NCBI GenBank assembly: GCA_016192435.1
Contig: JACPUD010000077.1
Span: 1-56,329, forward strand
Direction of reading: 5' to 3'
Source of the DNA: Rhodocyclales bacterium
GTDB lineage: Bacteria > Pseudomonadota > Gammaproteobacteria > Burkholderiales > Rhodocyclaceae
Length of the DNA: 56,329 bases
Shown: one piece after another, positions 9,135 through 54,654 of the stretch
Numbering within the stretch: the stretch's first letter is position 1
Layout: every line of letters starts with the position of its first letter
Notes under the pieces: generated by a model
Told to the model about the DNA's origin: nothing
The model's database searches: none
What the model saw: only the letters and a program-made list of their open reading frames with translations
Translations under genes and position numbers: made by a program

Positions 9135-10775
9135 TTAAACGGGTTTGATCGTCGATTCGTCGATGCTCGCATCGAACAGGTCCACCACATCGCGCACGAA
9201 GGGATCCTGTTCGATCGAGGCGATGGCGCGTTCCTGGCGGTCGCGCTGCTGATTGCGGCTGCGCTCGGCCGGTGTCTCGCTGGCAGGCTCCGCGACGTCG
9301 ATTTCGAGACGCAGCAGGCGCTGGTACCAGGTCTGCAATTCGGTTTGCAGCTTGTCCTGCTGCGGCTTGCCGAGCAGATGCTTGTGCACGGGTGCGAGGC
9401 GCAGGCGGATCACCGACTCGGTGAGTTCCGACAGTTCGCAGTGCTGCGCCAGTTGCTTGGCCATGCCCGTCAGCGGCAGCCGCGCCACCAGAACATGCCA
9501 GTCGTCAGCGGCGGGCGCAGCGACAGCCGCCGCGGCAGCCGGCACAGAAAGCGACGCAGCGGGTGGTTCGGAAGTTGGCGCTGGCGGCGCGGCGACCACC
9601 GGGCGGACCGCAGCCGCCGGAACTGCCGCGGCCGCTGCGGGCTTGCGCACCGGCGCCGCTGCGGCGGCAGGCTTCACCACGGCCACCCCGGCACGCTCCG
9701 GCCGGAAGGCATGCAGCCGCAGCAGGCTCATGACGAAGCCGGCATGGTCGTCGGGCGCCAGCGACAGCTCGTCGCGGCCATGGATCGCGATCTGGTAGGC
9801 CAGTTGCAGGTACTCGGCATCCAGCGCTTGCGCGTAGGGTGCCAGGCGGCTGCGCTCGGCCTCGTCGAGCAGCGCTTCAGGGGCGAACTGCGCCAGCGCG
9901 ATGCGGTGGAACAAGGTCGCCAGTTCCTGCAGGCCGCCGTCGAAGGACAGGCTGCGCGCATCCATCAATTTGGCCACTTCGAGCATGGCCTGGACGTCCT
10001 GCGCGACGAGGCCGTCGAGCAGGGCGAACAGGTGTTCGTCGCCGACCGTGCCGAGCATGGCGCGCACCGCCTCGTCTTCCACTTTCCCGGCGCCATGGGC
10101 GATGGCCTGGTCCAGCAAGGACAGCGCATCGCGCATGCTGCCCGCCGCGCCCTTGGCCAGATGGCGCAGGGCGGCCGGCTCGAAGGCCACGCCCTCGGCC
10201 TCCAGCACCCGCGACAGATGATCGACGATGTGCGTCAGCGGCATCTGCTTGAGGTTGAACTGCAGGCAGCGCGACAGCACCGTGACCGGAATCTTTTGCG
10301 GATCGGTCGTGGCGAGGATGAACTTGACGTGTTCCGGCGGTTCTTCCAGAGTCTTCAGCATCGCGTTGAAGGCGTGCCCCGAGAGCTGGTGCACTTCGTC
10401 GATCACATAGACCTTGTAGCGGCCCATGGTCGGTGCGTAGGTGGCGCGCTCCAGCAACTGGGTCATGTCGTCGACGCCGCGATTCGAGGCGGCATCGAGC
10501 TCGATGTAATCGACGAAACGGCCGCTATCGATCGCGGTGCAGGCCGAGCACACGCCGCAGGGCGTGGAACTGATGCCCGCTTCGCAGTTCAGGGCCTTGG
10601 CCATGATGCGCGCCAGCGTGGTCTTGCCGACGCCGCGCGTGCCGGTAAACAGGTAGGCGTGATGCAGGCGGTTCTGCTCCAGCGCATGGGTCAGGGCGCG
10701 CACCACATGCTCCTGCCCGACCAAGGTCGCGAAGGACTTGGGGCGCCATTTGCGGGCAAGGACCTGATAGCTCAT
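9135..10775 (-). CDS. dnaX: DNA polymerase III subunit tau/gamma
   Basis: A 546-residue clamp-loader ATPase. The N-terminal [19 protein letters not shown], Walker [10 protein letters not shown], four zinc-binding Cys ([16 protein letters not shown]), Walker [10 protein letters not shown] and sensor 1 region ([10 protein letters not shown]) are intact. A long Ala/Pro linker (about residues 365-430) precedes the C-terminal domain that in tau binds the polymerase. I see no poly-A slippery site of the E. coli type, so a separate gamma form by frameshifting is not evident. The linker contains one copy, on the antisense strand, of the dispersed 22-bp motif. Confidence 0.97.
9573..9594 (+). repeat. 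dispersed 22-bp motif, copy 1 (inside dnaX, antisense)
   Basis: An exact 14-bp core AGTTGGCGCTGGCG is followed by GCGCGGCG. It lies on the strand opposite to dnaX coding and corresponds to Ala/Pro/Thr/Ser codons of the tau linker. Confidence 0.75.
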
Positions 10776-10807
10776 GGCGCAATTTTATCAGGCCCGTCAA
10801 CACAATC

Positions 10808-10834
10808 GGGGCAGCCTGTAAAGCTGGCTGCCCC
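10808..10834 (-). terminator. hairpin terminator after the Spy-like gene
   Basis: GGGGCAGCC and its perfect complement (9 bp) enclose a nine-base loop, 19 bases after the stop of the periplasmic protein gene. On the minus strand it is followed by a modest T/G-rich stretch, so it is a plausible Rho-independent terminator separating that gene from dnaX. Confidence 0.65.
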
Positions 10835-10852
10835 GCCTTGCGGCAACTGAAA

Positions 10853-11368
10853 TCAGCCTTTGCGCACTTCCGCGGCGCCCGGTGCCCCGCGACCCGGGCC
10901 GTGCCGATGGCGGCCGATATTGCTGAAGTACTTGTCGGCGGCGGCCTGCTGTTCCGGCGTCAACGCGGCGTAGAGCCGGGTGAAGGATTCGTTCACCGAT
11001 TCCATCGCCGTGACACGCTCCTTCATGAGGCCCTGCATCTGCGCCAGGCGCTCCGGCGCGCTCTGCGGCTGGTTGCTCTGCCGGCGTTCGCGCATGGCCT
11101 GGATGCCCTTTCCGCTCTCGTTCTTCGACTTCTCGGCGAAGGCCTGCCAGAGCGGTTCCTGCTGGGTGGTGATCTTCAGATCGGCTTTCAGCCGGCTCAA
11201 GCGCTGCTCGACGCGGACACCCGGGTCCATCATGCCGCGCTGCATCGCACTGCGTTTCATGCCCGGCCTGCCGTCGGGATCGCAACCTGGTCCCTGCGCG
11301 TAGGCAACGCCGAAAAAGACCGCGCTGGCGGCGAGAAAGCCCGCAATAAGTGTGTTTCTGCGATTCAT
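10853..11368 (-). CDS. Spy/CpxP-like periplasmic LTXXQ protein
   Basis: A 171-residue exported protein with a signal peptide ending in FFGVAYA-Q. The mature part is helical, basic and Gln-rich and carries the LTPEQQ motif of the Spy/CpxP/ZraP group. These are periplasmic chaperones or metal-stress sensors. The C-terminal HRHGPGRG stretch could bind metal. No two-component system is adjacent, so the stimulus is unknown. Confidence 0.8.
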   Translation of the reverse strand: MNRRNTLIAGFLAASAVFFGVAYAQGPGCDPDGRPGMKRSAMQRGMMDPGVRVEQRLSRLKADLKITTQQEPLWQAFAEKSKNESGKGIQAMRERRQSNQPQSAPERLAQMQGLMKERVTAMESVNESFTRLYAALTPEQQAAADKYFSNIGRHRHGPGRGAPGAAEVRKG

Positions 11369-11492
11369 GGTCTGCTCCTGTCATAAATGCCTGATGGCAG
11401 GAAGCATTTCAACCGATGGCTGTAAGCCCGATGTGACAGCGCGCTGCCGTTTGTAAGGGAAGATTACAAAAAGCTGTCCATCGAAAGGAGGT

Positions 11493-11593
11493 GCGGCGAG
11501 CCTGACCCCCGGCACTTGCGGAAAACGGCTGTGGCTGCTTCCTTCCGGACCTGACCAGATTCACCACCCCGCAATGCGGGGAGACCCGCCGCA
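11493..11593 (-). ncRNA. ffs: 4.5S signal recognition particle RNA
   Basis: Read on the minus strand, the region contains the conserved SRP core GTCAGGTCCGGAAGGAAGCA, with the GGAA tetraloop region that binds Ffh. The ends GCGGCG and CGCCGC are complementary and close a long hairpin of about 100 bases. A TAAAAT -10-like box lies just upstream (11599-11604). The exact ends are inferred from the pairing. Confidence 0.93.
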
Positions 11594-11598
11594 AAAGA

Positions 11599-11604
11599 AT
11601 TTTA
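11599..11604 (-). promoter_or_regulatory. putative -10 box of ffs
   Basis: TAAAAT on the minus strand lies six bases upstream of the predicted 5' end of the SRP RNA. No convincing -35 box was found. Confidence 0.4.
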
Positions 11605-11623
11605 ACAGCTTTCATCGCCTGGT

Positions 11624-11645
11624 CGCCGCATCGCCAGCGCCAACT
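11624..11645 (-). repeat. dispersed 22-bp motif, copy 2 (intergenic, aorE-ffs)
   Basis: The exact 14-bp core is followed by ATGCGGCG, with a 5' GAAG extension matching the long form. It lies between the end of the aor operon and the ffs promoter region. Confidence 0.8.
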
Positions 11646-11661
11646 CTTCGACCGAGCGCGT

Positions 11662-11937
11662 TCAGCCTCCGCCGCGCTGGTAGTGCTGCGCAAAGCGCCG
11701 CATGAAGCGATCCTGCTCCGTCGCCGTCAGCCCTTCGAACTCGATCTCGACGCGATGCCGCTCCAGGCGCACCAGGCCGATTTCCAGCGGCGGAATCCGC
11801 GTCAGGCGCAGCGACCAACCCTCGCCGCGAAAGCGATCCGCGACTTCCTGAAACGGCTGGCCGCCGGTCGCTCTCGGCAGCAGGCGGAGAAAATCCTCGC
11901 GCGTGATCGTCGCGTCAAAGACGAGCGGAAATATCAT
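11662..11937 (-). CDS. small protein ending the aldehyde oxidoreductase operon (AorE position)
   Basis: A 91-residue soluble protein with no signal peptide. It starts inside the end of the MoaD-like gene (ATGA junction at 11934-11937), so it is translationally coupled to it. The sequence has alternating strands (FPLVFDATITREDFLRLLP, RVEIEFEGLT) and an Arg-rich, Gly-ended C-terminus, but no recognised domain or Cys motif. As the fifth gene after the three enzyme subunits and the sulfur carrier, it may help insert or mature the pterin cofactor. That is inferred from position only. Confidence 0.7.
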   Translation of the reverse strand: MIFPLVFDATITREDFLRLLPRATGGQPFQEVADRFRGEGWSLRLTRIPPLEIGLVRLERHRVEIEFEGLTATEQDRFMRRFAQHYQRGGG

Positions 11938-12197
11938 CCGCCGGCAACGGGGGGCCAGATGGCGAGCGTTTCTCCGTCGCGCAGCACCCGCCCCGCACGC
12001 TCCGACGGCGGCACGAACACGCCGTCGATCAGCACCAGATGCACCAGCTTCTCCGGCAGGCCGAAACGCGTGACGATTTGCGCTACGGTACTTGCCTCGT
12101 CGATTTCCAGCGCCAGGGCATTCGTCTTTTTCGCCTCGGGCGGAAGATAGTCCTGCAGGTGGGCGAACAGCTTGAACGTGATTTTGGTTACGGCCAC
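11934..12197 (-). CDS. MoaD/ThiS-like sulfur carrier of the aor operon
   Basis: An 87-residue ubiquitin-fold protein ending in Gly-Gly (IWPPVAGG), the terminus that is adenylated and thiocarboxylated in MoaD to deliver dithiolene sulfur to molybdopterin. The pattern ITFKLFAHLQDYLPPE...VLIDGVFV fits the family. Its place immediately after aorC suggests a carrier dedicated to the bis-pterin tungsten or molybdenum cofactor of the neighbouring enzyme. The first gene of the general pterin pathway in this window (moaA) lies 29 kb away. Confidence 0.85.
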   Translation of the reverse strand: MAVTKITFKLFAHLQDYLPPEAKKTNALALEIDEASTVAQIVTRFGLPEKLVHLVLIDGVFVPPSERAGRVLRDGETLAIWPPVAGG

Positions 12198-12247
12198 TGC
12201 GTTTTACTCCAAGAAAGCCGGCGTTAGCCTTCACTGAAACTTCGTCG

Positions 12248-13501
12248 TCATGCGGCCTTTTGCGCGGTCGCCAGATACGCGGCCATGAACTGCGTCGGAT
12301 CGGCCAGCAGGCGCGCCTTCCATTCGCCCAGCGGCGCCTGGGTCTGCACCAGACCGCGCAGCGCGCCGACGTGGTCGGTCCAGCCTATGCTGGTGGCGCC
12401 GATCAGCACGTCGCCCTTGAACTGCAGCGACAGGTAGCGATAGTTGTCCTCATCGACCCGCTCCACGCCGGCGCCGCCCTGCTCCCTGGCGACGCCCTGC
12501 CATTGTCCGAAGGAGGTCGAGATGAGGCCCAGGGTATCCAGCACGTTGATCGCCAGGCTGCCGCCGCTGACCGCTTCACCGCCGGCCATGTTGTGCGCGG
12601 CAATGCGCGCCTGATCGACCGCGTTGGGCTGGATCGCATTGAGTTCGGGCTTGCCTGTATGAAAATCGGCCGCCTCGGTCACGTCGCCAGCGGCATAGAT
12701 GTCGGCGACGCTGGTGCGCATCCCGGCATCGACGCGTATGCCACGCTCCATGGCGACGCCGCTGCCCTGCAGGAACTCGATGTTGGGCCGCACCCCGGCA
12801 GCACAGATCACCAGATCGGCCGCCAGTTCGCCGCCGGTACTGAGCTTGACGGCCAGCGCACCATCCTTTTGCTCGATCGCGGTGATCGCGGCATTGACAT
12901 GCACCGCGACACCCTTTTTTTCGACCCAGGCCTTGATCATCGCGCCGGCCTTGGGCGTCATCATGCGCGGCACCATGCGATCGCCCATTTCCACCACGGT
13001 CAGCTCGACGCCGCGTGCCGCCAGGGATTCCATGATGATGCAGCCGATGAAGCCGGCACCGAGCTGCAGCACGCGGCTGCCGGGCTTGGCCTTGGCCGCG
13101 ATGGCGCGTGCATCCTCGATGGTCCAGCAGGTATGCACGTTGGCCAGATCCATGCCGGCAACCTTGGGCCGTATCGGTTGCGAGCCGGTTGCGATCAGCA
13201 ATCGGTCGTAGGGCAGGCGTTCGCCGCTGGCGAACTCCAACTGCTTGGCCGGCGCATCGACCTTGACCACGCGGCCTTCTATGAGGTGGATGCGCTCCCG
13301 GGCGTAATGGTCGTGGCTTTTGCGCAGATGGGTGCCGCTGTCCGCAATCTTTCCGATCAGGAAATAGGGAATCGCCATGCGCGAATACGGCGGTTCCGCC
13401 TCGTCGCCGATCAGCGCGATTTCGGCGTCCGGTTGCAGGCGACGCAGGGTTTCGGCGGCGACCAGTCCGGTCGGGCCATTGCCGATGATGACGTGTTTCA
13501 T
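12248..13501 (-). CDS. aorC: FAD-dependent NAD(P)H oxidoreductase subunit of aldehyde oxidoreductase
   Basis: A 417-residue pyridine nucleotide-disulfide oxidoreductase family protein. It has an N-terminal FAD dinucleotide fold (VIIGNGPTGLVAAETL), a second NAD-binding fold (VLQLGAGFIGCIIME near residue 140) and the FAD-closing DIYAAGDVTEA motif near residue 268. In the AorABC enzyme of Aromatoleum this subunit passes electrons between the iron-sulfur subunit and NAD+. It follows aorB after a strong hairpin and precedes the sulfur-carrier gene. The symbol is assigned from gene order and family. Confidence 0.85.
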   Translation of the reverse strand: MKHVIIGNGPTGLVAAETLRRLQPDAEIALIGDEAEPPYSRMAIPYFLIGKIADSGTHLRKSHDHYARERIHLIEGRVVKVDAPAKQLEFASGERLPYDRLLIATGSQPIRPKVAGMDLANVHTCWTIEDARAIAAKAKPGSRVLQLGAGFIGCIIMESLAARGVELTVVEMGDRMVPRMMTPKAGAMIKAWVEKKGVAVHVNAAITAIEQKDGALAVKLSTGGELAADLVICAAGVRPNIEFLQGSGVAMERGIRVDAGMRTSVADIYAAGDVTEAADFHTGKPELNAIQPNAVDQARIAAHNMAGGEAVSGGSLAINVLDTLGLISTSFGQWQGVAREQGGAGVERVDEDNYRYLSLQFKGDVLIGATSIGWTDHVGALRGLVQTQAPLGEWKARLLADPTQFMAAYLATAQKAA

Positions 13502-13519
13502 GGGCTTTCCTTAAAACGA

Positions 13520-13548
13520 GCAGGGGACCGGCGATGCCGGTCCCCTGC
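13520..13548 (-). promoter_or_regulatory. 13-bp perfect hairpin between aorB and aorC
   Basis: GCAGGGGACCGGC at 13520-13532 and its exact complement at 13536-13548 enclose a three-base loop. On the minus strand a TTTT stretch follows a few bases later, then the aorC start. This looks like an intra-operon attenuator or a 3' stabiliser that sets subunit ratios. Confidence 0.7.
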
Positions 13549-13561
13549 GGTCCTCACACGA

Positions 13562-15412: not shown

Positions 15413-15422
15413 GTTCGTCTCC

Positions 15423-17980: not shown

Positions 17981-20344
17981 CTACCGCGCATGCCAGTAGC
18001 GCTTGCGCTCGGCACGCTCGTGCCGGAAACCGATGCCCGCCGCCTCCAGGCTGACCCTGACGGCACCGTCGGCATCGGTGCGATGCAGGCGGGCGCCGCT
18101 TTGCAGGTAGCGTGCCACCACGTCCTCCTTGGGATGACCGAAGCGGTTGCGGTAGCCGACCGGAAAAACCACGTCGCGCGCCGCCACCGCTGCCATGAAC
18201 TCCGGCGTCGATGAGGTCTTGCTGCCGTGATGCGGGGCCGTCATTGCGGCAGCCGCCAGCTCGGCCGGATGCTGGCGGAGCAGCGCGCGTTCCGACACCG
18301 CCTCGATGTCGGAGGTCAGCAGCATCGATTGCCCGGCGGCCGTCACGCGCAGCACGCAACTGAGGTCGTTGGTCTTGCGCGAAAGCGCCTCGGCGCCGGG
18401 ATGCAGCATTTCGAAGCGCACGCCGTCCCAGTTCCAGGCATCGCCGTCGCGGCACAATTCGTGGGGGACAGGCTGCGCCGACAGGGCATGCTCGAAGGGC
18501 AGCGAGGTTTTCATGATCGCCACGGGCAGCGCAGCCAGCACCGAGGCTGCACCGCCCTCGTGGTCCTTGTCGGCGTGGCTGACCACCAGCGTATCGAGCC
18601 CGCGCACACCCATCGCGCGCAGGTAGGGCGCGATGATGCGGTTGCCGCTGTCGGCATCCGCCGAAAATGCCGGCCCGGCATCGAACAGCAGATCGTGGCC
18701 GGCGGTCTGCACATGGATCGCCAATCCCTGGCCGACGTCGAGCACCGCGATTGCGGCGGCGCCGGGCGCCGGGCGCGGCGGCAGCACCGTCAGCAGCGGC
18801 AGGAAGGCCAGCAGACCCAGCCAGCGCGCCGGAAAGCCGCGCGGCAGCAGGAGCCAGATGCCGCCGACCAGCGCCAGCAGCACCGACCACCCTGGCGGCG
18901 CGGCCTGCTGCCACATCGCCAGCGGCAAGGCGGCAAGCCAGTCGATCAACACCATCAGCCAGGCCGTCAGCAGATGTGCCAGCGACAGCAGCGGATCGAG
19001 CGGCGGCAGGCTGCCGAGCAGGGCCAGCGGTGCGACGACGAAGCTGACCGCCGGGATCGCCACGGCATTGGCCAGCGGCGAGACCAGCGAGAACTGCTGG
19101 AACAGGGCCAGCAAGGCCGGCAGCATGCCCAGCGTAACGGCCCACTGCGCCCGCCCCCATTCGACCAGCCAATGCGCCGGCCCCAACCGCCCGCTGCCGA
19201 TGTGGAACAGCAGCGCCACCGCGCCGAAGGAAAGCCAGAAGCCGGCGGCCAGCACCGCCCACGGATCGAGCAGCAGGACCAGCAACAGCGCCAGCGCCAG
19301 CACACGCGAGCCGGCGATCTCGCGCGTGCTCAACCGCGCCAGCGCCACCACGCCGAGCATGTACAGCGTGCGCTGCGCCGGCACGGCGAAGCCGGCCAGC
19401 AGGCAATACAGCAGGGCCGCCAGGAAACCGCCGACGGTCGCCGCCTGCTGCGCCGGAATGACCAGCGGCAGGCGCGCCGAACGCCGCCACAGCCAGTTCA
19501 CCAGCGCATAGGCCAGCCCCGCCAGCATGGTCACGTGCAGGCCGGAGATGCTCATCAGGTGGGTGATGCCGGTGCGGGCGAAGGTCTGCCACAGGGCGGG
19601 ATCGATCGCATGCTGATCGCCGATGGCCAGCGCGATCAGGATGCCGGCATAGGGCGCGTCCGGCAGCGCGGCGTGGAAGCGGTCGCGTATCGCTTCGCGC
19701 AGCATTTCCACCGCGTAACCCGGCCGCCACACCCGGGCATCGATGCGCTCGGCGCTGTGCGGACGCACGTAACCGGTGGCGCGGATGCCGCGCTCGAACA
19801 GCCAGGCTTCATAGTCGAAGCCATGCGGATTGAGATTGCCGTGCGGACGCTTCAGCCGCACCGTGAAGCGCCAGCGCTCGCCGGCGCGCACGGGAATCAG
19901 CGGCGAGGCTTCAGCGTCGGCCTCGTCGCGGCCGCGATACCAGGCCAGCGAGATATGCGGCGGCAGGCCGGCCGCGGCCTGTTCGACGTCGAACTCGAAG
20001 CGCACGCCGCGTTCCAGCGCCTGCGGCAGGCCGGCGACCACGCCGGTCAGCTCGATGTCGCGGCCTTCCAAGGCCGGCGGCAATTCGTCGGCCAGGCGCA
20101 GATAGGCGAAACCCGCCGCCCAGACGAAACCCAGCGCGACACCCACGGCAAGCCACAGCGCCGAAGCAACCAAGCGCCGGGTCGCCAGCGCCAACTCTTG
20201 CAGCCTGCTGCGCAGCGCCAGCCCCAGCCAGGCGCAGGCGGCCGCACCCGTAGCGATGGCGGCCAGCCAGCTTGCGCCAGGCAGCACTGCCTGCTGTTGC
20301 AGCAACCAGATACCGCCGGCAAAGGCTATGACAAAAGGGCGCAC
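17981..20344 (-). CDS. comEC: DNA internalisation channel ComEC/Rec2
   Basis: A 787-residue inner-membrane protein that carries single-stranded DNA into the cytoplasm during natural transformation. It has N-terminal membrane helices with an OB-like region (about residues 1-200), the Competence domain with ISGLHVTMLAG (about 270) and a C-terminal metallo-beta-lactamase domain with SHADKDHEGG (about 590-600). The gene appears full-length and intact. A copy of the dispersed 22-bp motif lies in its early coding region (encoding QELALATRR). No other competence gene is nearby. Confidence 0.93.
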   Translation of the reverse strand: MRPFVIAFAGGIWLLQQQAVLPGASWLAAIATGAAACAWLGLALRSRLQELALATRRLVASALWLAVGVALGFVWAAGFAYLRLADELPPALEGRDIELTGVVAGLPQALERGVRFEFDVEQAAAGLPPHISLAWYRGRDEADAEASPLIPVRAGERWRFTVRLKRPHGNLNPHGFDYEAWLFERGIRATGYVRPHSAERIDARVWRPGYAVEMLREAIRDRFHAALPDAPYAGILIALAIGDQHAIDPALWQTFARTGITHLMSISGLHVTMLAGLAYALVNWLWRRSARLPLVIPAQQAATVGGFLAALLYCLLAGFAVPAQRTLYMLGVVALARLSTREIAGSRVLALALLLVLLLDPWAVLAAGFWLSFGAVALLFHIGSGRLGPAHWLVEWGRAQWAVTLGMLPALLALFQQFSLVSPLANAVAIPAVSFVVAPLALLGSLPPLDPLLSLAHLLTAWLMVLIDWLAALPLAMWQQAAPPGWSVLLALVGGIWLLLPRGFPARWLGLLAFLPLLTVLPPRPAPGAAAIAVLDVGQGLAIHVQTAGHDLLFDAGPAFSADADSGNRIIAPYLRAMGVRGLDTLVVSHADKDHEGGAASVLAALPVAIMKTSLPFEHALSAQPVPHELCRDGDAWNWDGVRFEMLHPGAEALSRKTNDLSCVLRVTAAGQSMLLTSDIEAVSERALLRQHPAELAAAAMTAPHHGSKTSSTPEFMAAVAARDVVFPVGYRNRFGHPKEDVVARYLQSGARLHRTDADGAVRVSLEAAGIGFRHERAERKRYWHAR
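20175..20196 (-). repeat. dispersed 22-bp motif, copy 3 (inside comEC)
   Basis: The exact core is followed by ACCCGGCG and preceded by CAAG, the long form seen in intergenic copies. In comEC it is read in the frame giving Gln-Glu-Leu-Ala-Leu-Ala, a different frame from the Val-Gly-Ala-Gly copies. Confidence 0.75.
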
Positions 20345-22591: not shown

Positions 22592-23293
22592 CTAAACCAG
22601 CACGCCATCCTGCAGATGCAGCACCCTGCCCGCCCGCGCCGCGAGATCGAGGTCGTGCGTCACCAGAATCAGGGCCGCGCCGTGCTCGCGGCAGAGTTCC
22701 AGCAGCAGGCCGAACACCGAATCGGCCGCGCCGCGATCCAGGTTGCCGGTCGGCTCGTCGGCCAGCAGGCAGTCCGGCCGCGTCACCAGGGCACGCGCCA
22801 CGGCCACTCGCTGGCGCTCGCCGCCCGACAGTTCACCGGGCCGGTGGCTCAGGCGATGGCCGAGGCCGACCCGATTCAGCACCGCGCTGGCCTGCTGTTC
22901 GGCTGCGGCGCGGTCCATGCGGCGGATCAGGAGCGGCATGGCGACATTTTCCACGGCGGTGAATTCCATCAGCAGATGGTGGAACTGATAGACGAAGCCC
23001 AGGCTGCGATTGCGCAGCCGCCCGCGCTGCGCCTCGCCGACCTGCGCCAGGTCGTTGCCGTGCAGCAGCACGCGACCCGCGGTCGGCGTGTCGAGTCCGC
23101 CCAGCAGGTGCAGCAGGGTGCTCTTGCCCGATCCGCTGGCGCCGACGATCGCCACCGTGTCGCCAGCGCCAACTTTCAGATCGACAGCGGTCAGGACCGG
23201 TACCTGCGCCGCGCCCTGGCGAAAAATCTTGCTCAGGCCGTGGCACTCCAGCACGGTCTCCGGCGCCTGCCCTGCCTTCTCCAGATCACTCAT
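22592..23293 (-). CDS. lolD: lipoprotein-releasing ABC transporter ATPase LolD
   Basis: A 233-residue ABC ATPase with Walker [10 protein letters not shown] (about residue 43), the Q-loop region [11 protein letters not shown], signature [14 protein letters not shown] and Walker [10 protein letters not shown]. It powers release of outer-membrane lipoproteins from the inner membrane to LolA. It overlaps the permease gene by eight bases. A copy of the dispersed motif encodes its [10 protein letters not shown] segment with unusual AAA-GTT-GGC-GCT codons. Confidence 0.94.
23153..23174 (-). repeat. dispersed 22-bp motif, copy 4 (inside lolD)
   Basis: The exact core preceded by AA (short form) and followed by ACACGGTG. 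In lolD it encodes Lys-Val-Gly-Ala-Gly-Asp-Thr-Val. Confidence 0.75.
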
Positions 23294-30428: not shown

Positions 30429-30571
30429 CGATTGGTGTTTTGCGGGGGAAGGGCAAAGCGGATGTTACACCGCCACAAAGTCGATCCGGGTAATGACACG
30501 GAAGTGGCGTGGCGCGCCGGGGCGCCCGGCCGCCCTTCGCCGCGGTCCGCCGCGGGCGATCAATGCCGGCG

Positions 30572-30593
30572 CGCCGTAGCGCCAGCGCCAACT
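30572..30593 (-). repeat. dispersed 22-bp motif, copy 5 (intergenic, upstream of prfC)
   Basis: The exact core followed by CTACGGCG, preceded by AGAG. It lies about 30 bases upstream of the TATAAT box of prfC. Confidence 0.8.
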
Positions 30594-33008: not shown

Positions 33009-33030
33009 CGCCGTGTCGCCAGCGCCAACT
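33009..33030 (-). repeat. dispersed 22-bp motif, copy 6 (intergenic, before luxR-type gene)
   Basis: The exact core followed by ACACGGCG and preceded by CAAG. This copy is closest to the overall consensus. It sits 38 bases after the esterase stop and 47 bases before the regulator start. Confidence 0.85.
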
Positions 33031-37329: not shown

Positions 37330-37351
37330 AGTTGGCGCTGGCGGAACGGCG
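37330..37351 (+). repeat. dispersed 22-bp motif, copy 7 (intergenic, before the TA remnant)
   Basis: The exact core followed by GAACGGCG and preceded by CAAG. It lies in the gap between the SRAP start and the antitoxin operon promoter. Confidence 0.8.
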
Positions 37352-38861: not shown

Positions 38862-38934
38862 CCGGCAAGATTAACCTGAAATACGCGACTAAGTGCGCCC
38901 TGTCACATTCGAGCGCAGCGAGCAAACCGATAGC

Positions 38935-38964
38935 CTCCCCGCGAGGGGAGGATGGGAGGGGCGG
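38935..38964. repeat. C/G-rich stem-loop element, copy B
   Basis: CCTCCCC-gcga-GGGGAGG is followed by ATGGGAGGGGCGGG, the same layout as copies A and C. Confidence 0.5.
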
Positions 38965-39030
38965 GCGTTCAATTCGCTGTTGCGTTGTTTCATTGCCAGG
39001 GGTGCAGTCATTGACGGTATGAGCGTTAGC

Positions 39031-42552: not shown

Positions 42553-43836
42553 ATGACTTCCATACTCCAAGCCTTTTCCTGCGCCGACGATTACGACCCG
42601 AATTCCCTGCCGGTCGATCGCGCCCGCGAACTGATCCTCGGCCTGCTCGCGCCCGTTACCGGGCATGAGCGCGTTTTCGTGCGCCAAGCGCTGGATCGCG
42701 TGCTGTCGGACGACGTCATTTCGCCGATCGACGTGCCGGCCCACGACAACTCCGCCATGGACGGCTGGGCCGTGCGCTTCGGCGATCTGGCGACGAACGG
42801 ACCAACCCGCCTGAAGAACATCGGCACCGCCTTTGCCGGGCGTGCCTTCGAAGGCAAAGTTGGCGCTGGCGAGACGGTGCGCATCATGACCGGCGGCGTG
42901 CTGCCGCAGGGCGTGGACTGCGTGGTGGTCCAAGAAGTGACGCAGGTCGAGGGCGATGCCGTGATCATTCCGCCGGGCCAGCGCCAGGGACAGAACCTGC
43001 GCCGCGCCGGCGAGGATCTGCAGGCCGGCCGCCCGGCGATACCGGCCGGCAGGAAGCTGCGTCCGGCCGAGATCGGCATCGTCGCCTCGCTGGGGCTGGG
43101 CGAAGTCTCGGTGCGGCGCCGGGTGCGCGTGGCGATTTTTTCCACGGGCGACGAACTCTGTTCGATCGGCACGCCGCTGGCGGAAGGCGCCGTGTATGAC
43201 AGCAACCGCTACACGCTGTGGGGCATGCTGACGCGTCTGGGTTGCGAGGTGATCGACATGGGCGTGGTGCGGGACGACCCGGCCGCGCTCGAAGCCGCCT
43301 TCCGCGAGGCGGCGGCCTGCGCCGACGCGATCATCACCAGCGGCGGCGTCTCGGTCGGCGAGGCCGATTTCATCAAGCAGCTGATGGCCCAGCTGGGCGA
43401 AGTCGCCTTCTGGAAAATCGCCATGAAGCCCGGCCGGCCGATGGCATTCGGCCGCATCCAGCCCGAAGGCGAGCAGCGTCCCGGCGCCTGGCTGTTCGGC
43501 CTGCCGGGCAACCCGGTGGCGGTGATGGTGACCTTCTACCAGTTCGTCCAGCCGGCCATCCTCAAACTGGCCGGGATCGACCCGGTCAGGCCCGTTCCCG
43601 GCTTTCCCGCGCGCTGCGTCGAGCCGATGAAGAAGGGCCGCGGCCGCACCGAATTTCAGCGCGGCATCCTGTTCCAGGAAAACGGCGAGTGGTGCGTGCG
43701 CCCCACCGGCGCGCAAGGGTCGGGCGTACTGCGCTCGATGGCCGACGCCGACTGCTTCATCGTGCTGGAACACGAACGCGACAAAGTTGGCGCTGGCGAG
43801 ACGGTGATGGTGCAGTTGATGAACGGGCTGGTTTAG
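42553..43836 (+). CDS. moeA: molybdopterin molybdenumtransferase MoeA
   Basis: A 427-residue MoeA protein that inserts molybdate into adenylylated molybdopterin. DVPAHDNSAMDGWAVR, RIMTGGVLPQG, FSTGDEL, IITSGGVSVGEADF and LFGLPGNPVAV are family motifs. Two copies of the dispersed 22-bp motif lie in the gene, one in the middle domain and one six codons before the end; both encode KVGAGETV. It should serve the pterin enzyme of the aor operon among others. Confidence 0.96.
   Translation: MTSILQAFSCADDYDPNSLPVDRARELILGLLAPVTGHERVFVRQALDRVLSDDVISPIDVPAHDNSAMDGWAVRFGDLATNGPTRLKNIGTAFAGRAFEGKVGAGETVRIMTGGVLPQGVDCVVVQEVTQVEGDAVIIPPGQRQGQNLRRAGEDLQAGRPAIPAGRKLRPAEIGIVASLGLGEVSVRRRVRVAIFSTGDELCSIGTPLAEGAVYDSNRYTLWGMLTRLGCEVIDMGVVRDDPAALEAAFREAAACADAIITSGGVSVGEADFIKQLMAQLGEVAFWKIAMKPGRPMAFGRIQPEGEQRPGAWLFGLPGNPVAVMVTFYQFVQPAILKLAGIDPVRPVPGFPARCVEPMKKGRGRTEFQRGILFQENGEWCVRPTGAQGSGVLRSMADADCFIVLEHERDKVGAGETVMVQLMNGLV
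42858..42879 (+). repeat. dispersed 22-bp motif, copy 8 (inside moeA)
   Basis: The exact core preceded by CAA and followed by AGACGGTG, read as Lys-Val-Gly-Ala-Gly-Glu-Thr-Val. Confidence 0.75.
43785..43806 (+). repeat. dispersed 22-bp motif, copy 9 (inside moeA, 3' end)
   Basis: Identical to copy 8 over the 22 bases and its 5' neighbours, again encoding Lys-Val-Gly-Ala-Gly-Glu-Thr-Val. It lies about 30 bases before the moeA stop. Confidence 0.75.
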
Positions 43837-43845: not shown

Positions 43846-43905
43846 GGACCGCAGGGCGGACCGTAGGGCGGACCGTAGGGCGGACCGTAGGGCGGACCGT
43901 AGGGC
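43846..43905 (+). repeat. five tandem 12-bp units
   Basis: Five consecutive copies of GGACCGTAGGGC (the first with C for T). The unit looks derived from the left arm of the adjacent GGCGGACT palindrome. Confidence 0.85.
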
Positions 43906-44110
43906 GGACTTCAGTCCGCCAACGTAAACCGGCGGACTGAAGTCCGCCCTACAACGCCAACGTAAACCGGCGGACTAAAGTCCGCCCTACAACGCCATCG
44001 TAAACCGGCGGACTGAAGTCCGCCCTACAACCCCAACGTAAATCGGCGGACTGAAGTCCGCCCTACAACACCAACGTAAACCGGCGGACTGAAGTCCGCC
44101 CTACAACGCT
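43903..44110. repeat. array of palindromic GGCGGACT repeats
   Basis: Six near-perfect palindromes of GGCGGACT(T/G)(C/A)AGTCCGCC occur. The first is inverted relative to the others. From 43931 the unit is 38 bp (the palindrome, CCCTAC, then a 16-bp spacer with AACGTAAACC), present four times complete and once partial. It resembles REP-type elements of betaproteobacteria and fills most of the 317-bp gap between moeA and the M48 peptidase. Confidence 0.85.
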
Positions 44111-47393: not shown

Positions 47394-47415
47394 AGTTGGC
47401 GCTGGCGCTACGGCG
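47394..47415 (+). repeat. dispersed 22-bp motif, copy 10 (intergenic, after the halogenase)
   Basis: The exact core followed by CTACGGCG and preceded by CAAG. It lies between the halogenase terminator and the ompW regulatory region. Confidence 0.85.
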
Positions 47416-48326: not shown

Positions 48327-48348
48327 TACGCCCGCGCGCCGCCGCGCG

Positions 48349-49488: not shown

Positions 49489-50004
49489 ATGAGCAAGGAC
49501 TCCCCTGCCCCGGGTTTCCGGCGACGCATTTATGCCGGCCCCATGCAGTTCTGGCGCGACCTGTATCGCGCGCTGGCGCAGTTGCGCCCGGTGCTTTCGC
49601 TGTCCCTCAAATCCGGGATTTCCGCGGCTTTTCGCGAGCGCATCATGATGGTCGTCAGCGGCGTCAATCGCTGCCGGCATTGCGCCTATGGACACGAGTT
49701 TCTCGCGGCGCTGGCGGGCGTTTCCAAAGCCGAGATTGCCCGCCTGCTGGCGCTGGACCTGACCGCTTCCCCGGCCGAAGAAATCCCCGCGCTGCTGTTC
49801 GCCATGCACTGGGCGGAATCCGACGGGCAGCCGACCAGCGCGGCGCAAGCCGATCTGCAGGCCCGCTATGGCGTCGCGGTCGCACGCCAGATCGAGGCGG
49901 CGACACTGATGATCCACATCGGCAACCGGATCGGCAACACCTTCGATTACTGGCTCAGCCGGCTCTCGGGCGGGCGCTTCGGGCTGCTCGCCGATGAACA
50001 CTGA
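49489..50004 (+). CDS. carboxymuconolactone decarboxylase/AhpD-like protein
   Basis: A 171-residue protein of the CMD/AhpD family. The redox motif CRHCAYGHEFLAAL (CxxC with downstream His) near residue 60 suggests peroxidase-like or thiol-disulfide activity. The ATG at 49489 was preferred over 49354 because the extension has no family similarity; no strong ribosome site supports either. It overlaps the next gene by 11 bases. Confidence 0.8.
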   Translation: MSKDSPAPGFRRRIYAGPMQFWRDLYRALAQLRPVLSLSLKSGISAAFRERIMMVVSGVNRCRHCAYGHEFLAALAGVSKAEIARLLALDLTASPAEEIPALLFAMHWAESDGQPTSAAQADLQARYGVAVARQIEAATLMIHIGNRIGNTFDYWLSRLSGGRFGLLADEH

Positions 50005-50320
50005 TCCGGCCTGCCTGACGGGCGCCGTGCCCGGCGATTTCGCGCTGAGCGTGGCGGAGCTCGCCCCGCCGCAGCCGCTCGCGAATTACCTCGCGGCGAT
50101 GAAGCTTGCCGATGCCGAGGCCAGTGCGCGCCTCGGCAGCCACATGCTGTTGTCGTGGTATGACCGCGACCGGGATTTCGAATCGCCCCAGCATGCCAGC
50201 GAATGCCATGCGTCCGGCGCCATGCCCGGCTATGCGGTGTACGGCCTGCACCACGGCGCCACGCTGATGGTGAACGTCGAACAGGGCCGCTTCGTGTTCT
50301 TCTATTTGCCGCTGGAATGA
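49994..50320 (+). CDS. small conserved-looking protein of unknown function
   Basis: A 108-residue soluble protein with no signal peptide. Its central MLLSWYDRDRDFESPQHASECH and the following GYAVYGLHHGATLMVNVEQGRFVFFY look like a compact, conserved fold with several His, Asp and Cys residues that could bind metal. I do not recognise the family. It starts inside the end of the CMD gene, so the two are co-translated and may act together. Confidence 0.7.
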   Translation: MNTDPACLTGAVPGDFALSVAELAPPQPLANYLAAMKLADAEASARLGSHMLLSWYDRDRDFESPQHASECHASGAMPGYAVYGLHHGATLMVNVEQGRFVFFYLPLE

Positions 50321-50327
50321 GCGGTAT

Positions 50328-50349
50328 CGCCGTGTCGCCAACGCCAACT
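50328..50349 (-). repeat. dispersed 22-bp motif, copy 11 (intergenic, between convergent genes)
   Basis: The core has one mismatch (GTTGGCGTTGGCG) and is followed by ACACGGCG and preceded by CAAG. It lies between the ends of two convergent genes. Confidence 0.75.
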
Positions 50350-50367
50350 CTTGCCGCGGGCCGCGCC

Positions 50368-51567
50368 CTACTCCGTCCTTAGCGCTTCGACCGGATCGAG
50401 CAGCGCCGCGCGTCGCGCCGGCAGCACGCCGGCGGCCAGGCCGATGGCGGCGGCCAGGGCTTCGGCCAGCAGCACGAATGATATCGGCGTATGCACCGGC
50501 AGCGCCGGGACGAAAAGGCCGATCAGTTGCGCCAGACCGATGCCGAGCAGCAGGCCGACCAGGCCGCCGATCGCGGCGAGCGCCACGGCTTCGCCGAGGA
50601 ACAGGCCGAGGATGGTCTGGCGCCGGGCGCCGAGCGCCACCAGCAGGCCGATCTCGTTGGTGCGTTCGGTGACGGCGATGGTCATGATGGTGACGATGCC
50701 GACACCGCCGACCAGCAGCGAAATGCCGCCGAGGGCGCCGACCGCCATGGTCAGCACGTCGAGGATGCCGCCCAGCGTGGCCAGCATTTCCTCCTGGCTG
50801 ATGATGGTGACATCGTTGCGGCCGTGGCGGGCAGCGACCACCTGCTTGATCGCGTCCACCACGCCGGCGGCGGGCACGCCCTCGGCCACCGAGATGTTGA
50901 TTTCGTTGAGACCCTCGCGATTGAACAGTTCCATGGCGCGTGCCGCCGGGACATAGGCCGTGTCGTCGAGGTCGATGCCGAGGAACTGACCCTTGGGCTC
51001 CATGATGCCGATCACGCGGAACTGCAGGCCGCCGATGCGCACGCGCGCGCCCAGCGCATTCTCGGCGCCGAACAATTCGTTCTTCAGCTTCGGTCCCAGC
51101 ACCACCTGGGCGCGTGCGGCACCAGCCTCCTCCTCCGGCAGGAACTGGCCGCTGCGCACCTTGGCGCGGAACACCACCAGCAGGCCGGGACCGACGCCAT
51201 AGACCGAGACGCGCCGCACGCGGCCGTTGCCGCTGACCTCGGCATTGCCGAACACGCTGGGCGTGACCGCGACCACGTTGGGCACGCGCTTCAGCGCCTC
51301 GGCATCCTCCAGCGACAGCGGCCGCGCGCTGCTCGGAAAGCCGATGGTCCCGCCGCCGGTCTTGGTGCGCCCCGGATGGACGCCGACCACGTTGGTGCCG
51401 AACTGGGTGAACTCCGCCAGCACATAGCGATGGATGCCCTCGCCGATCGAGGTCAGCAGGATCACCGCGGCAATGCCGACGGCAATCCCGAGCAGGGTCA
51501 GGAAACTGCGCAGGCGCTGGGCGGCGATCGCGCGCAGGGCCAGGGCGAAGAAATCGGTAAACACCAT
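50368..51567 (-). CDS. MacB-like ABC permease, second copy
   Basis: A 399-residue permease with one N-terminal helix (FLTLLGIAVGIAAVILLTSIG), a periplasmic MacB-core domain and three C-terminal helices (MTIAVTERTNEIGLLVALGARR between them). It lacks an ATPase domain and would use the ATPase encoded upstream. The ATG at 51567 lies three bases after the previous permease gene. The two permeases probably pair as a heterodimer. Confidence 0.9.
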   Translation of the reverse strand: MVFTDFFALALRAIAAQRLRSFLTLLGIAVGIAAVILLTSIGEGIHRYVLAEFTQFGTNVVGVHPGRTKTGGGTIGFPSSARPLSLEDAEALKRVPNVVAVTPSVFGNAEVSGNGRVRRVSVYGVGPGLLVVFRAKVRSGQFLPEEEAGAARAQVVLGPKLKNELFGAENALGARVRIGGLQFRVIGIMEPKGQFLGIDLDDTAYVPAARAMELFNREGLNEINISVAEGVPAAGVVDAIKQVVAARHGRNDVTIISQEEMLATLGGILDVLTMAVGALGGISLLVGGVGIVTIMTIAVTERTNEIGLLVALGARRQTILGLFLGEAVALAAIGGLVGLLLGIGLAQLIGLFVPALPVHTPISFVLLAEALAAAIGLAAGVLPARRAALLDPVEALRTE

Positions 51568-51569
51568 GG

Positions 51570-52778
51570 TCAGTGCTTCATCAGGGCCTGCACGGGATCG
51601 AGCCTGGCCGCGCGCCGCGCCGGCATGATGCCGAACAGCATACCGGTGCAAAGCGCCGTGCCGAGTGCCGCGATCACCGCCCAGTCCGGCGGATAGGCGG
51701 GAAACGCCGGGTACATCTGGCGCAGCACGAAGGCGCCGAACAGGCCGAGGCCGTAGCCGGTGACGGCGCCGACCAGGGAGAGCATCGCGGCCTCGGCCAT
51801 GAAGGCATTGCGGATCGTCGTGGCGCGCGCGCCGAGCGCCTTGAGCAGGCCGATCTCGGCCGTGCGCTGGGTCACCGCGACCAGCATCACGTTCATCACC
51901 AGGATGCCGGCGACGGCCAGGCTGATCGCGGCAATGCCGGCCACCGCGGCGGTCAGCGCGCGCAGCAGCTTGTCGAAGGTGGCGAGCACGGCGTCCTGGG
52001 TGATCACTGTGATGTCTTCCTCGCCGTGACGCGCCTTGAGCATGGCGGTCACCTCGCGCTTGACGGCTTCGATCTCGCCGCGACTCCTGGCCTCGATCAG
52101 AATGCGGAACAGGCTGCTGGTATTGAACAGGCTCTGGGCCAGGCTGACCGGGACGAAGACCACCTCGTCGGTGTTCATGCCGCCCACCCCCTGGCCGGTG
52201 GCCTTCAGCACGCCGACGACGCGCAGGCGGCGGTCGCCGAGGCGGACCAGCTCGCCCACGGCAGGGTTGGCGCCGAAAATCTCCTCCTTGATCTTGGCGC
52301 CGATCACCATCACCGGTGCGCCGCGGTTCCAGTCGCCTTCGGGCAGGAAATGCCCCTGCGCCATGGCGAAGCTGCGTATGTCGAAGTAAGGCGAGGCGGT
52401 GCCGGCCACCACGACTTCGCGCAGCCGCCCGTTGGCGTTGATCTCCGAATTGCCCGCGGCCAGCGGTGCCACGCGCCGCACCGAAGGCAGCCGGGTCAGG
52501 GCAAAGGCATCGTCCACCGTAAGGTCGCGCGGCGTTGTGGTCAGCGCATTGGCCGGGCTGAAGCCGCCGGTGGCCGATCGTCCGGGCAGGACGATGACGA
52601 GGTTGCTGCCCAGCGCCGAGAACTGTTCGATCACGTAGCGCCGCGCGCCGTCGCCGAGCGAAGTCAGCACCACCACGGCGGCAACGCCGATGGCCATCGC
52701 CAGCACCGAGAGCGACGTGCGCAGCGGATAGCCGGCCGCCGCATCGCGGGCGAAACGCAGGACGTCGGCGTGGCGCAT
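51570..52778 (-). CDS. MacB-like ABC permease, first copy
   Basis: A 402-residue permease with the same layout as its neighbour (LSVLAMAIGVAAVVVLTSLGDG at the N-terminus, FtsX-like C-terminal helices with VTQRTAEIGLLKALGARA). It lies nine bases after the ATPase gene. Tandem paralogous permeases in one operon suggest duplication and heterodimer formation for export. Confidence 0.9.
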   Translation of the reverse strand: MRHADVLRFARDAAAGYPLRTSLSVLAMAIGVAAVVVLTSLGDGARRYVIEQFSALGSNLVIVLPGRSATGGFSPANALTTTPRDLTVDDAFALTRLPSVRRVAPLAAGNSEINANGRLREVVVAGTASPYFDIRSFAMAQGHFLPEGDWNRGAPVMVIGAKIKEEIFGANPAVGELVRLGDRRLRVVGVLKATGQGVGGMNTDEVVFVPVSLAQSLFNTSSLFRILIEARSRGEIEAVKREVTAMLKARHGEEDITVITQDAVLATFDKLLRALTAAVAGIAAISLAVAGILVMNVMLVAVTQRTAEIGLLKALGARATTIRNAFMAEAAMLSLVGAVTGYGLGLFGAFVLRQMYPAFPAYPPDWAVIAALGTALCTGMLFGIMPARRAARLDPVQALMKH

Positions 52779-52787
52779 GGCGTCGCT

Positions 52788-53486
52788 TCAGCTCGCCGCA
52801 GCGACCGGCCGCGCGCTGTCGCTTTTCAGCTCACCATCTTCCATCAGCAACTGGCGCCGCGCGCGGGTGCCGATTTTCGGGTCGTGGGTGACGATGATCA
52901 GGGTCATGCCGCGCTGGTTGAGTTCTTCCAGCAAATGGATCACGTCGTCGCCGGTGGCGCGGTCGAGGTTGCCGGTCGGCTCGTCGGCCAGCAGCACGGC
53001 GGGCTGCATGATGGTGGCGCGGGCGATCGCGACGCGCTGCCGCTGGCCGCCGGAAAGCTGGTCGGGCCTATGGTCGGCGCGCTGGTCGAGGCCGAAATCC
53101 TTGAGCGCCTGTTGCACGCGCTGCGCCCGCTCGGCCGCCGGGATGCCGGCCAGCATCATCGGCAGGGCAACGTTCTCGGCGGCCGTCAGGCGCGGCACCA
53201 GATGGAAGCTCTGGAACACGAAGCCGATGCGCCGGCTGCGCACGGCGGCCTGCTCGTCGGGCGAGAGCGTGGTGACGTCGCGGCCTTCGAGACGATAGGA
53301 CCCCGCATCGGGCCGGTCGAGCAGGCCCAGCAGGTTGAGCAGCGTGGATTTGCCGGAACCCGATGGCCCCATGATCGCCACATATTCCCCGGCCTCGATG
53401 GCGACATCGAGCCCGGTCAGCGCATGCACCACGCTGTCGCCGAGATGGAAGACGCGCTCGATGCCGGCGAGCTGTATCACCGCCAT
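52788..53486 (-). CDS. MacB/LolD-type ABC ATPase
   Basis: A 232-residue ATPase with Walker A GPSGSGKST, signature LSGGQRQRVAIARA and Walker [10 protein letters not shown]. The N-terminal ERVFHLGDSVVHALTGLDVAIEAGEYVAIMG matches MacB-type mechanotransmission ATPases. The ATG at 53486 avoids an in-frame extension that overlaps the upstream macA-like gene. Confidence 0.93.
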   Translation of the reverse strand: MAVIQLAGIERVFHLGDSVVHALTGLDVAIEAGEYVAIMGPSGSGKSTLLNLLGLLDRPDAGSYRLEGRDVTTLSPDEQAAVRSRRIGFVFQSFHLVPRLTAAENVALPMMLAGIPAAERAQRVQQALKDFGLDQRADHRPDQLSGGQRQRVAIARATIMQPAVLLADEPTGNLDRATGDDVIHLLEELNQRGMTLIIVTHDPKIGTRARRQLLMEDGELKSDSARPVAAAS

Positions 53487-53487
53487 G

Positions 53488-54654
53488 CTATTTCGATTTT
53501 TCGTTCGCCGTGGCCGCCGTGGCGCGAGCGCCAACTTTCACGCCCTCGCGTTCGAGCGAGGTGACGATGCGCTCGGCCTCGGCCAGGCCTTCGACGATTT
53601 CGGTGAACTCCCAGTTGGCGGTGCCGATCTTGACCTTGCGCTCTTCGAGCTTGCCGCTTTCGGCGTTCAGCACCATCACGCGACTGCCCTCGATCAGCGC
53701 CGCGGTGGGCACCCGCAGCACGTTGGCGCGCGTGGCGAGCACGATCTCGACGTCGGCGCTGTAGCCGACCAGCAGGCCGCCGCTCGCCGGTATGTCGAAA
53801 TCCACCTCGACATCGACCGTGCGCGCCTGCTTCTCGACCGCCAGCACATAGGGCGCGACGCGCCGCACCTTGCCCTGCAAAGGCTGCTTGGGCAGGGCAT
53901 CGAGCGTGACGCGCACCGGCAGGCCGGCCTTGATCTTCGGCGCATCGATTTCATCCATCGGTGCGTTGATGTAAAGACAGGAATCGTCGATCAGGTCGAT
54001 CGCCGGCGGCGTCGGCACGCCCGGCGGCGAAGGTGTCGAATATTCGCCGAGCTCGCCGACGATGTTCGCCACGATGCCGTCGAAGGGCGCATACAGCGTC
54101 ATGCGGCCCTGTTCGACTTTCGTCACGTTGATCCGCGCCTGGGCCTGGGCCACGTCGGCACGTGCCGTGTCGCAGGCCGCGCGGCGGGTGTCGGCCTCGC
54201 TGCGCGCGGCGTCCTCGCGCGCCTCCGAAACATAGCCCTTGGCGCGCAGCGAGGTCTGCCGTTCGGCTTCTCGCCCGGCGCTGGCGGCCGCGGTGCACAC
54301 CTCCTTGACGCGCTGGGCCGATGTCGTGCGCTGGGCTTCGGCCAGGGTCTGCTGTGCCTTCTGGTCGTCGTTCCAGAGCTTCATCAGCAACTGGCCCTGC
54401 TTCACCTTGTCGCCTTCCTTGACGCCGAGGTATTCGATGCGGCCGCCCATGATGGTGGATAGCCGCGTGCGCTGGCAGGCTTCGACCGTGCCGGCACGGG
54501 TATTGACCACCGTGGACTCGACGTTGCCGCGGTCGACGGACCTCAGCACCACGCTGACCGGTTTGGTCCGCGTGGTCCATAGATAGGCGCCGACGAGGAG
54601 AAGCAGGACGAGCGCCGCCGGCAGGATGCGGCGCAATAAAAAGGATGTATTCAT
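53488..54654 (-). CDS. MacA-like periplasmic adaptor (HlyD family)
   Basis: A 388-residue membrane-fusion protein with an N-terminal membrane anchor (ILPAALVLLLLVGAYLW), a lipoyl half-motif (GRIEYLGVKEGDKVKQGQLLMKL), a coiled-coil hairpin (about residues 95-170) and the second lipoyl and beta-barrel regions. It is the first gene of the export operon. Near its C-terminus a copy of the dispersed motif encodes VKVGARATAATA. No outer-membrane factor is nearby, so a TolC-like protein from elsewhere would be needed. Confidence 0.9.
   Translation of the reverse strand: MNTSFLLRRILPAALVLLLLVGAYLWTTRTKPVSVVLRSVDRGNVESTVVNTRAGTVEACQRTRLSTIMGGRIEYLGVKEGDKVKQGQLLMKLWNDDQKAQQTLAEAQRTTSAQRVKEVCTAAASAGREAERQTSLRAKGYVSEAREDAARSEADTRRAACDTARADVAQAQARINVTKVEQGRMTLYAPFDGIVANIVGELGEYSTPSPPGVPTPPAIDLIDDSCLYINAPMDEIDAPKIKAGLPVRVTLDALPKQPLQGKVRRVAPYVLAVEKQARTVDVEVDFDIPASGGLLVGYSADVEIVLATRANVLRVPTAALIEGSRVMVLNAESGKLEERKVKIGTANWEFTEIVEGLAEAERIVTSLEREGVKVGARATAATANEKSK
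53515..53536 (-). repeat. dispersed 22-bp motif, copy 12 (inside the macA-like gene)
   Basis: One mismatch in the core (GCTCGCG for GCTGGCG), followed by CCACGGCG and preceded by AA. It encodes Lys-Val-Gly-Ala-Arg-Ala-Thr-Ala near the protein's end. Confidence 0.65.

Follow-up and report, generated by a model that had tools for sequence, protein, structure and literature searches.

A word of about 25 bp with lineage dialects as a probable DNA-uptake sequence in Rhodocyclales

Meningococci and Haemophilus use certain words as a "password" by which cells tell their own kind of DNA and import it. The DNA-uptake sequence (DUS) is a word of 10-13 nt with a CTG core that is bound by ComP, and close inverted pairs of it are usual. 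Eight DUS dialects with about 900-5900 copies and a permissive location in the core genome are described for the Neisseriaceae (PMC3630211), and DUS are described as more conserved than their permissive flanks (PMC2397512). According to a 2025 paper, discrimination of own DNA by words is known in Neisseriaceae and Pasteurellaceae only, and ComN is proposed as a receptor (PMC12616744). The present analysis concerns a repeated word in contig JACPUD010000077.1 of a Rhodocyclales bacterium, a stretch of 56,329 nt that is called the window throughout, in which the original prediction had noted a 22-bp motif at twelve places.

This is probably a third family with an uptake sequence of its own, longer than those described and unrelated to them, and we infer an uptake bias and a receptor from the distribution of the word. 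By analogy with DUS and with the uptake signal sequences (USS) of Pasteurellaceae, the word is interpreted with good confidence as a DNA-uptake sequence that serves self-recognition in a clade of one Rhodocyclales family. It is likely that Rhodocyclales thereby possess a third, independently evolved self-recognition system for transformation, with about five dialects that differ by small changes and a C-to-T switch at the fourth base in a three-genome clade inside one genus, where most sites were rewritten and amino acids of host proteins changed, and with viral contigs that carry the word too.

Copies in the window and across the genome

The window is contig C47 of a Sulfuritalea-type metagenome-assembled genome (MAG) of the Rhodocyclales (G000; 3.52 Mb, 83% complete). 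A gene finder seeded with Pfam-supported genes gave 51 calls, about half of which have Pfam support. All twelve predicted copies were found in place, ten as exact AGTTGGCGCTGGCG and two with one mismatch (50328 and 53515), five on the plus and seven on the minus strand, and each has CGG at a constant offset and a final G. By our own gene calls six of the twelve are intergenic, in agreement with the predicted half. The copies and the genes discussed below are as follows.

9573..9594, plus strand: motif copy in dnaX (9135-10775, minus strand), antisense to the gene
11624..11645, minus strand: motif copy, intergenic, between the small SRP RNA gene (11492-11590) and gene 11662-11937; retained in sister MAG locus L037
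20175..20196, minus strand: motif copy within comEC, sense strand
23153..23174, minus strand: motif copy within an ABC transporter ATPase gene (22592-23293), sense strand
30572..30593, minus strand: motif copy, intergenic, divergent genes; sister MAG locus L009 has AGTTGGCGTTGGCG
33009..33030, minus strand: motif copy, intergenic; identical in G015 (L198)
37330..37351, plus strand: motif copy, intergenic, divergent genes
42858..42879, plus strand: motif copy in moeA, sense strand; word in the local dialect in 21 of 26 genomes
43785..43806, plus strand: motif copy in moeA, sense strand; orthologous site of the C dialect in G001 and others
47394..47415, plus strand: motif copy, intergenic, just past a gene end (47326); same in G015 (L190)
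50328..50349, minus strand: motif copy with one core mismatch, intergenic; same word in G015 (L190)
53515..53536, minus strand: motif copy with one core mismatch, in an HlyD-type gene (53488-54654); dialect base C in G001
17981..20344, minus strand: comEC, the natural-transformation channel (Competence domain PF03772, 1.5e-58; DUF4131; metallo-beta-lactamase domain)
42553..43836, plus strand: moeA, with two motif copies, used for the comparison across genera
11492-11590, minus strand: small SRP RNA (Rfam)
11-83, plus strand: tRNA gene (Rfam)

The CAAG said to precede intergenic copies does so in four of the six (33009, 37330, 47394 and 50328) but is also found at the comEC copy, and AA stands immediately 5' of AGTT in four of the six coding copies. 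With up to two mismatches the window holds 21 matches, nine of them outside the original twelve; shuffled sequences lead one to expect 1.56, and none of them exceeds 5. Exact copies are denser here (10 in 56 kb) than in the genome as a whole (276 in 3.52 Mb).

The suggestion that the motif is a true family and a genome-wide signal was borne out by these 276 exact copies in G000 (144 forward and 132 reverse), with none for the reversed word; with up to one mismatch the counts are 501 and 7. A complete congener (G001) has 218 sites in 1.2 Mb with up to two mismatches, and twelve permuted words gave 0 each. De novo 12-mer counts lead to the same element: it supplies the top over-represented words of G000, AGCGCCAACTCT and AGTTGGCGCTGG, and in G001 the most over-represented word is AGTCGGCGCTGG (40 against 0.8 expected), which differs by one base from the G000 form. 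Such strong over-representation on both strands is a property of uptake sequences. The recurrence of the predicted 22-bp motif is thus real, but the full word is slightly longer, about 25 bp, RARAGTTGGCGCTGGCGNNACGGCG; counted from the A of AGTT, information covers positions of about -3 to +21 and is near background on either side. The consensus from 111 exact copies in the loci compared reads (C)RARAGTTGGCGCTGGCG(A)(C)ACGGCG, in which four columns are sharpened since many of the loci were picked by a pattern fixing CGG.G.

The window also contains dispersed repeats of two other kinds, both numerous in congeners. The one at 38869-39005 is found in the genera of G336 and G363 as well and has a CCCCGCGAGGGG-type hairpin; the one at 43852-43999 consists of GTAGGGCGGACT / GGACTGAAGTCC palindromes, and these rank high in the G000 k-mer list too. 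Opposite window 30476-30572, which ends at a motif copy, sister MAG locus L009 (5427-6681) has about 1.2 kb of extra sequence between the genes that flank this copy; a mobile-element insertion beside the motif was considered there and rejected, the motif itself being aligned.

Lineage dialects and the one-base switch

Among 25 genomes of the genus, AGTTGGCGCTGGCG reaches hundreds of copies solely in G000 and in G015 (312), with 0-6 in the other 23. A restriction of the motif to these two genomes was rejected as a dialect effect, most congeners carrying an AGTCGG... form: 26 of 31 genomes of the genus have at least 75 copies of AGTCGGCGCTGGCG, and those below this level are G000 (38), G015 (47), G044 (46), G021 (52) and G016 (9). 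G044 is a third T-dialect genome, with T at 25 of 31 sites in 160 kb. Among the matches listed in a database scan, 63 of 80 come from two Sulfuritalea MAGs, and loci of G015 and G044 show matches of about 89-97% to the window or elsewhere in G000.

Beyond the genus, a family scan with up to two mismatches gave at least 30 matches in 24 of 199 genomes, belonging to 9 of 68 genera, and at most 19 in the remainder (reversed controls, at most 6). Bearers include a Sulfurisoma MAG (514), Sulfuritalea E14 (576), Sulfuritalea MAG2 (606), three other Rhodocyclales MAGs (442-473) and an uncultured betaproteobacterium (508); Accumulibacter necessarius (5) and Achromobacter (3) represent the background at this threshold. 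The dialects read AAA(G/C/A)TCGGCGCTGGCGGGACGGCA in g18, AAAAGTCGG(T/C)GCTGGCGAGACGGCG in g142 (T at 13 of 23 listed sites), AAAGTCGGCGCTGGCGGNACGGCG in g22 and AGTCGACGCTGGCG in g176. In 100-kb samples the word tops the 10-mer list solely in G336 and is enriched near the top in G050. A scan of 300 genomes of the order found the right half of the C/T form 226 times in G000, 50 times in G278 and at most three times elsewhere; this half-word misses other dialects (3 and 2 copies in G050 and G180, against 202 and 356 in the family scan), so that further dialects are possible outside the family. Dialects that follow lineages around a constant inner part and are conserved at orthologous sites are a hallmark of uptake sequences. 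In G016 and G046, two members of the same genus, the word is lost or being lost though PF03772 is present. In two low-count genomes, G379 and G378, several copies lie on single contigs (C104, C66 and C557; C50), which may be contamination or DNA acquired from a motif-bearing relative.

The dialects were compared at orthologous sites. Allowing up to three mismatches and any letter at the dialect base gave 87 sites in 441 kb of G000; these were compared by alignment with 1.2 Mb of G001, and the dialect base was excluded from the criterion for a kept site. Nineteen of the 26 sites with a spanning match are kept, and the base changes from T to C at all 16 that carry T, the remaining three having C in both genomes. 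The sister MAGs provide 123 sites, 21 of them spanning in G001 (18 kept, 2 gapped, 1 not kept), again with T to C in 16 of 16 and C in both at two. In the reverse direction, 30 of 233 G001 sites span in G000; 19 are kept, with C to T at 16 and C in both at three. Flanking positions change from T to C in 11% and from C to T in 5.4% of cases. Since third codon positions change from T to C in 46% and 32 of 112 GTT codons are GTC in the other genome, the C-to-T direction is the stronger test. At a rate of 46%, 32 T-to-C changes out of 32 have p = 1.5e-11 if sites are independent, which they are not, as one switch underlies them all; the alignments are partial samples and MAG quality varies.

Identity at the 19 kept G000 sites is 94% in the core, 84% in the flanks, 66% at the two free bases and 16% at the dialect base. 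Thirteen of these sites are sense (ten in one frame and three in another), five antisense and one intergenic. In the second sense frame the switch converts TTG (Leu) to TCG (Ser) at all three kept sites, and in one antisense frame it would replace Asn by Asp at one kept site.

The two moeA copies were followed across genera; the paralogue is present in 26 of 30 genomes searched, and both sites were read there. By hand count with up to three mismatches, the word at 42858 is kept in 21 of the 26, in each genome's own dialect. The three T-clade genomes read GTT GGC GCT and most congeners GTC GGC GCT or GCC; G336 has GTC GGT GCT (GGTG) and G180 GTC GGC GCT ... GCA (ending in GGCA), both matching the dialects of their own genomes. 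The five genomes that have not kept the word here are G016, G046, G370, G432 and G363. The site at 43785 is missing in several genomes, including G370, G180, G050, G363, G278, G016 and G046, and in the motif-poor G016 both sites have been overwritten by substitution. In a moeA tree built without the two sites, G000, G015 and G044 fall together (support 0.96) inside the C-dialect genomes, and G016 groups with G009 and G012 (0.87), nested among motif-rich congeners. By this placement, which concerns one gene, both the dialect switch and the motif loss in G016 look derived.

These alignments also bear on a small dispersed or mobile repeat that inserts itself, which would account for identical words at many unrelated places; the original prediction had listed a small dispersed repeat. 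The flanks are unrelated between copies and similarity ends at the motif edges, with no palindromic or inserted unit and no extended shared flank of the REP or MITE kind. Not one of the 26 alignments has an indel at 42858, motif-poor genomes included (at 43785, G278 has a four-residue insertion). Sites are written by substitution at orthologous codons, are common to several genera and have switched dialect together. This is the least probable of the alternatives considered.

A one-base shift at scattered orthologous sites, partly against the amino acids, requires a common reader and a converting force, and both are supplied if uptake is biased and recombination follows. DNA that contains RARAGTYGGCGCTGGCGNNACGGCG would be preferred by a receptor on the cell surface, in all likelihood a minor type IV pilin, and would be drawn in and handed by ComEC to recombination. 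Better-matching fragments would be taken up and recombined more often, so that matches would build up where the core genome tolerates them, and a shift in receptor specificity would let the sites drift jointly to a new dialect. Biased uptake, a pilin receptor and molecular drive are thus the suggested cause, with a receptor presumably at the pilus tip as for ComP and the proposed ComN.

The main rival, an abundant DNA-binding protein, had been among the original candidates and still stands as one: a nucleoid or chromosome-organising protein of the cytoplasm would bind the word, and dialects would reflect a change of its specificity with compensatory changes of sites. The word is long, rigid and not palindromic, does not vary in length and occurs genome-wide in moderate copy number, all of which fits this idea, as does the finding that bearers and non-bearers of the motif are alike in the presence of ComEC. 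A nucleoid protein would supply the reader, but not easily the conversion, as a concerted one-base switch, even against amino acids, would be hard to achieve by selection site by site. A site of this length that recurs several hundred times is, to our knowledge, not described for any nucleoid protein. Together with the lack of strand polarity and the placement of sites all round the sampled circle except in a low-GC stretch (see below), this makes the explanation unlikely.

Genomic location, competence genes and opposing evidence

The word is three to four times enriched between genes. In G000, 31 of 87 sites are intergenic and in G001 30 of 77; intergenic DNA accounts for 10.3% of the bases in either genome (binomial, 7e-20). 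Convergent gene pairs hold 22 of the 61 intergenic sites (9 expected from 15% of intergenic bases; p 5e-5) and divergent ones 8 (17 expected from 27%; p 0.007). Such a permissive location is characteristic of uptake sequences. Enrichment between genes, greatest where they converge, would also suit a transcription-related element such as a regulator box or part of a terminator. However, 103 of the 164 sites are genic, on one strand or the other, the divergent regions in which promoters are located are depleted, close pairs are almost absent, and the Rfam matches in the window are the SRP RNA and tRNA alone, none at a site. A role in transcription is accordingly highly improbable.

The replication-polarity site among the candidates of the original prediction is contradicted by the use of strands. 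With replichore boundaries of G001 taken from GC skew, the two replichores have 48 plus and 55 minus, and 59 plus and 56 minus, sites. A recombination or segregation signal read by a translocase, as Chi or KOPS, would likewise be genome-wide, and its link to recombination could also yield lineage variants. Chi- and KOPS-type signals are short and polar. The equal use of strands in both replichores contradicts this interpretation, which is very unlikely, and absence of replication-strand polarity is what uptake sequences display. Neighbouring sites in G001 have the same orientation in 107 cases and the opposite in 91, and their spacing is within the random range (coefficient of variation of gaps 0.86, against 0.85-1.08 for random placement).

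Sites occur all round the sampled circle of G001, one low-GC stretch excepted. The four 10-kb intervals from 1900001 to 1940000 (L110, L230; GC 0.53-0.57) have no site, and ten proteins tested there include TraN, TraI_2, McrBC and HipA, with conjugation genes among them. The same 40 kb also encode an ADP-ribosylglycohydrolase/macro protein.

Competence machinery (ComEC and type IV pili) is present, as transformation demands; it is necessary and does not discriminate. The window itself contains comEC with a motif copy inside it, and ComEC together with minor-pilin-like operons makes uptake possible. Two such operons lie side by side in L137 (G000:C39:1-20000), with FimT, PilV, PilW, PilX, PilY1 and PilE types recognised by eye. 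Pilins of the ComP type (PF16732, ComP_DUS) number two in G000, at L137, and one in all of G001. An inspection by eye of pilins around PF16732 matches at 17 loci revealed no pattern of presence or absence.

Several observations weigh against an uptake sequence. PF03772 was found in 50 of 50 family genomes tested, motif-free members and the motif-poor G016 included, and PF16732 in 38 of 40, bearing or free of the motif; since both are also found in motif-free members, the machinery does not tell bearers apart and does not pinpoint the receptor. Close inverted pairs are nearly absent (2 of 198 neighbour gaps in G001 below 100 bp, with up to two mismatches). Sites occur once per 5.5-13 kb depending on stringency, which is below known DUS genomes, and the Rhodocyclales word has about 25 bp and hundreds of copies, unlike DUS with 10-13 bp and about 900-5900 copies. 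Six of the 26 spanning G000 sites are gapped in G001 and one is not kept; in the reverse comparison six are not kept and five gapped. At 42858, G370 has its own dialect in the left half alone (GTC GAC GCT) and is five positions off the word. G336 is mixed, with GGTG at 13 of 23 listed sites by hand count and GGCG at the rest, and the top 10-mer in the 100-kb samples of G050, G180 and G278 is another word. Because site density generally falls with GC (from 2.6 to 0.25 per 10 kb), the deficit in the G001 island is partly one of composition, and in G000 a stretch of low GC with few sites (L122) contains genes of ordinary kinds. Finally, uptake or transformation data on these organisms were not found in the open PMC literature.

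With these points weighed, a DNA-uptake sequence, the first candidate of the original prediction, remains favoured by the dialects, the orthologous sites and their location. Searches of open PMC papers for "DNA uptake sequence" in Rhodocyclales and for natural transformation of Sulfuritalea returned nothing; the 12-base core occurs in three open PMC papers, none of which is about it, judged from title and start of abstract, and no paper on this family was among the matches listed in broader searches.

The word is also carried by viral contigs (L318 onward, for example L342 692-713, L355 and L326), in at least 120 stretches with the full word. All 102 distinct viral contexts are of the C dialect and 86 of the 102 have A at -2; in L342 a gene for a phage-type DNA methyltransferase carries the word at its 3' end. 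Six of the 120 viral loci resemble the family DNA compared.

Comparison with known recognition words

If the interpretation as an uptake sequence is true, a third family with an unrelated and longer word would mean more than two origins of self-recognition in transformation. As the recent C-to-T switch has close relatives to either side, the change of receptor and the conversion of sites could then be dated, and the receptor could be sought by comparing pilins across the switch and in word-losing lineages. The word could also be a practical key for transforming little-studied bacteria.

With the motifs of nucleoid proteins, parS, matS, KOPS and Chi, as generally known, the Rhodocyclales word shares the property of a repeated signal read by a protein. 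It differs from them in its lack of replichore polarity, its length of about 25 bp and the concerted dialect switches at orthologous sites. The USS of Pasteurellaceae, of the Hin and Apl types, are similarly composed of a core and a second block downstream, span about 25-32 bp and come in lineage types; their sequence is unrelated, their second block is AT-rich and not the GC-rich ACGGCG, and they belong to another bacterial class.

The comparison with the DUS of Neisseriaceae is the closest. Apart from an internal CTG the sequences are unrelated, and the word is thus not a DUS in the strict sense; close inverted pairs of the terminator type are almost absent, no ComP homolog that discriminates bearers was found among the genomes tested, and the Rhodocyclales system is known from sequence. 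As with DUS, the word is the most over-represented one in the genome (G000 and G001) and occurs on both strands, in and between genes. Its dialects differ by small changes and follow lineages, and its orthologous sites are conserved above their flanks. Its absence from an island that looks acquired, to which low GC contributes, may be a further parallel. The word, too, belongs to a betaproteobacterial family, and ComEC is present.

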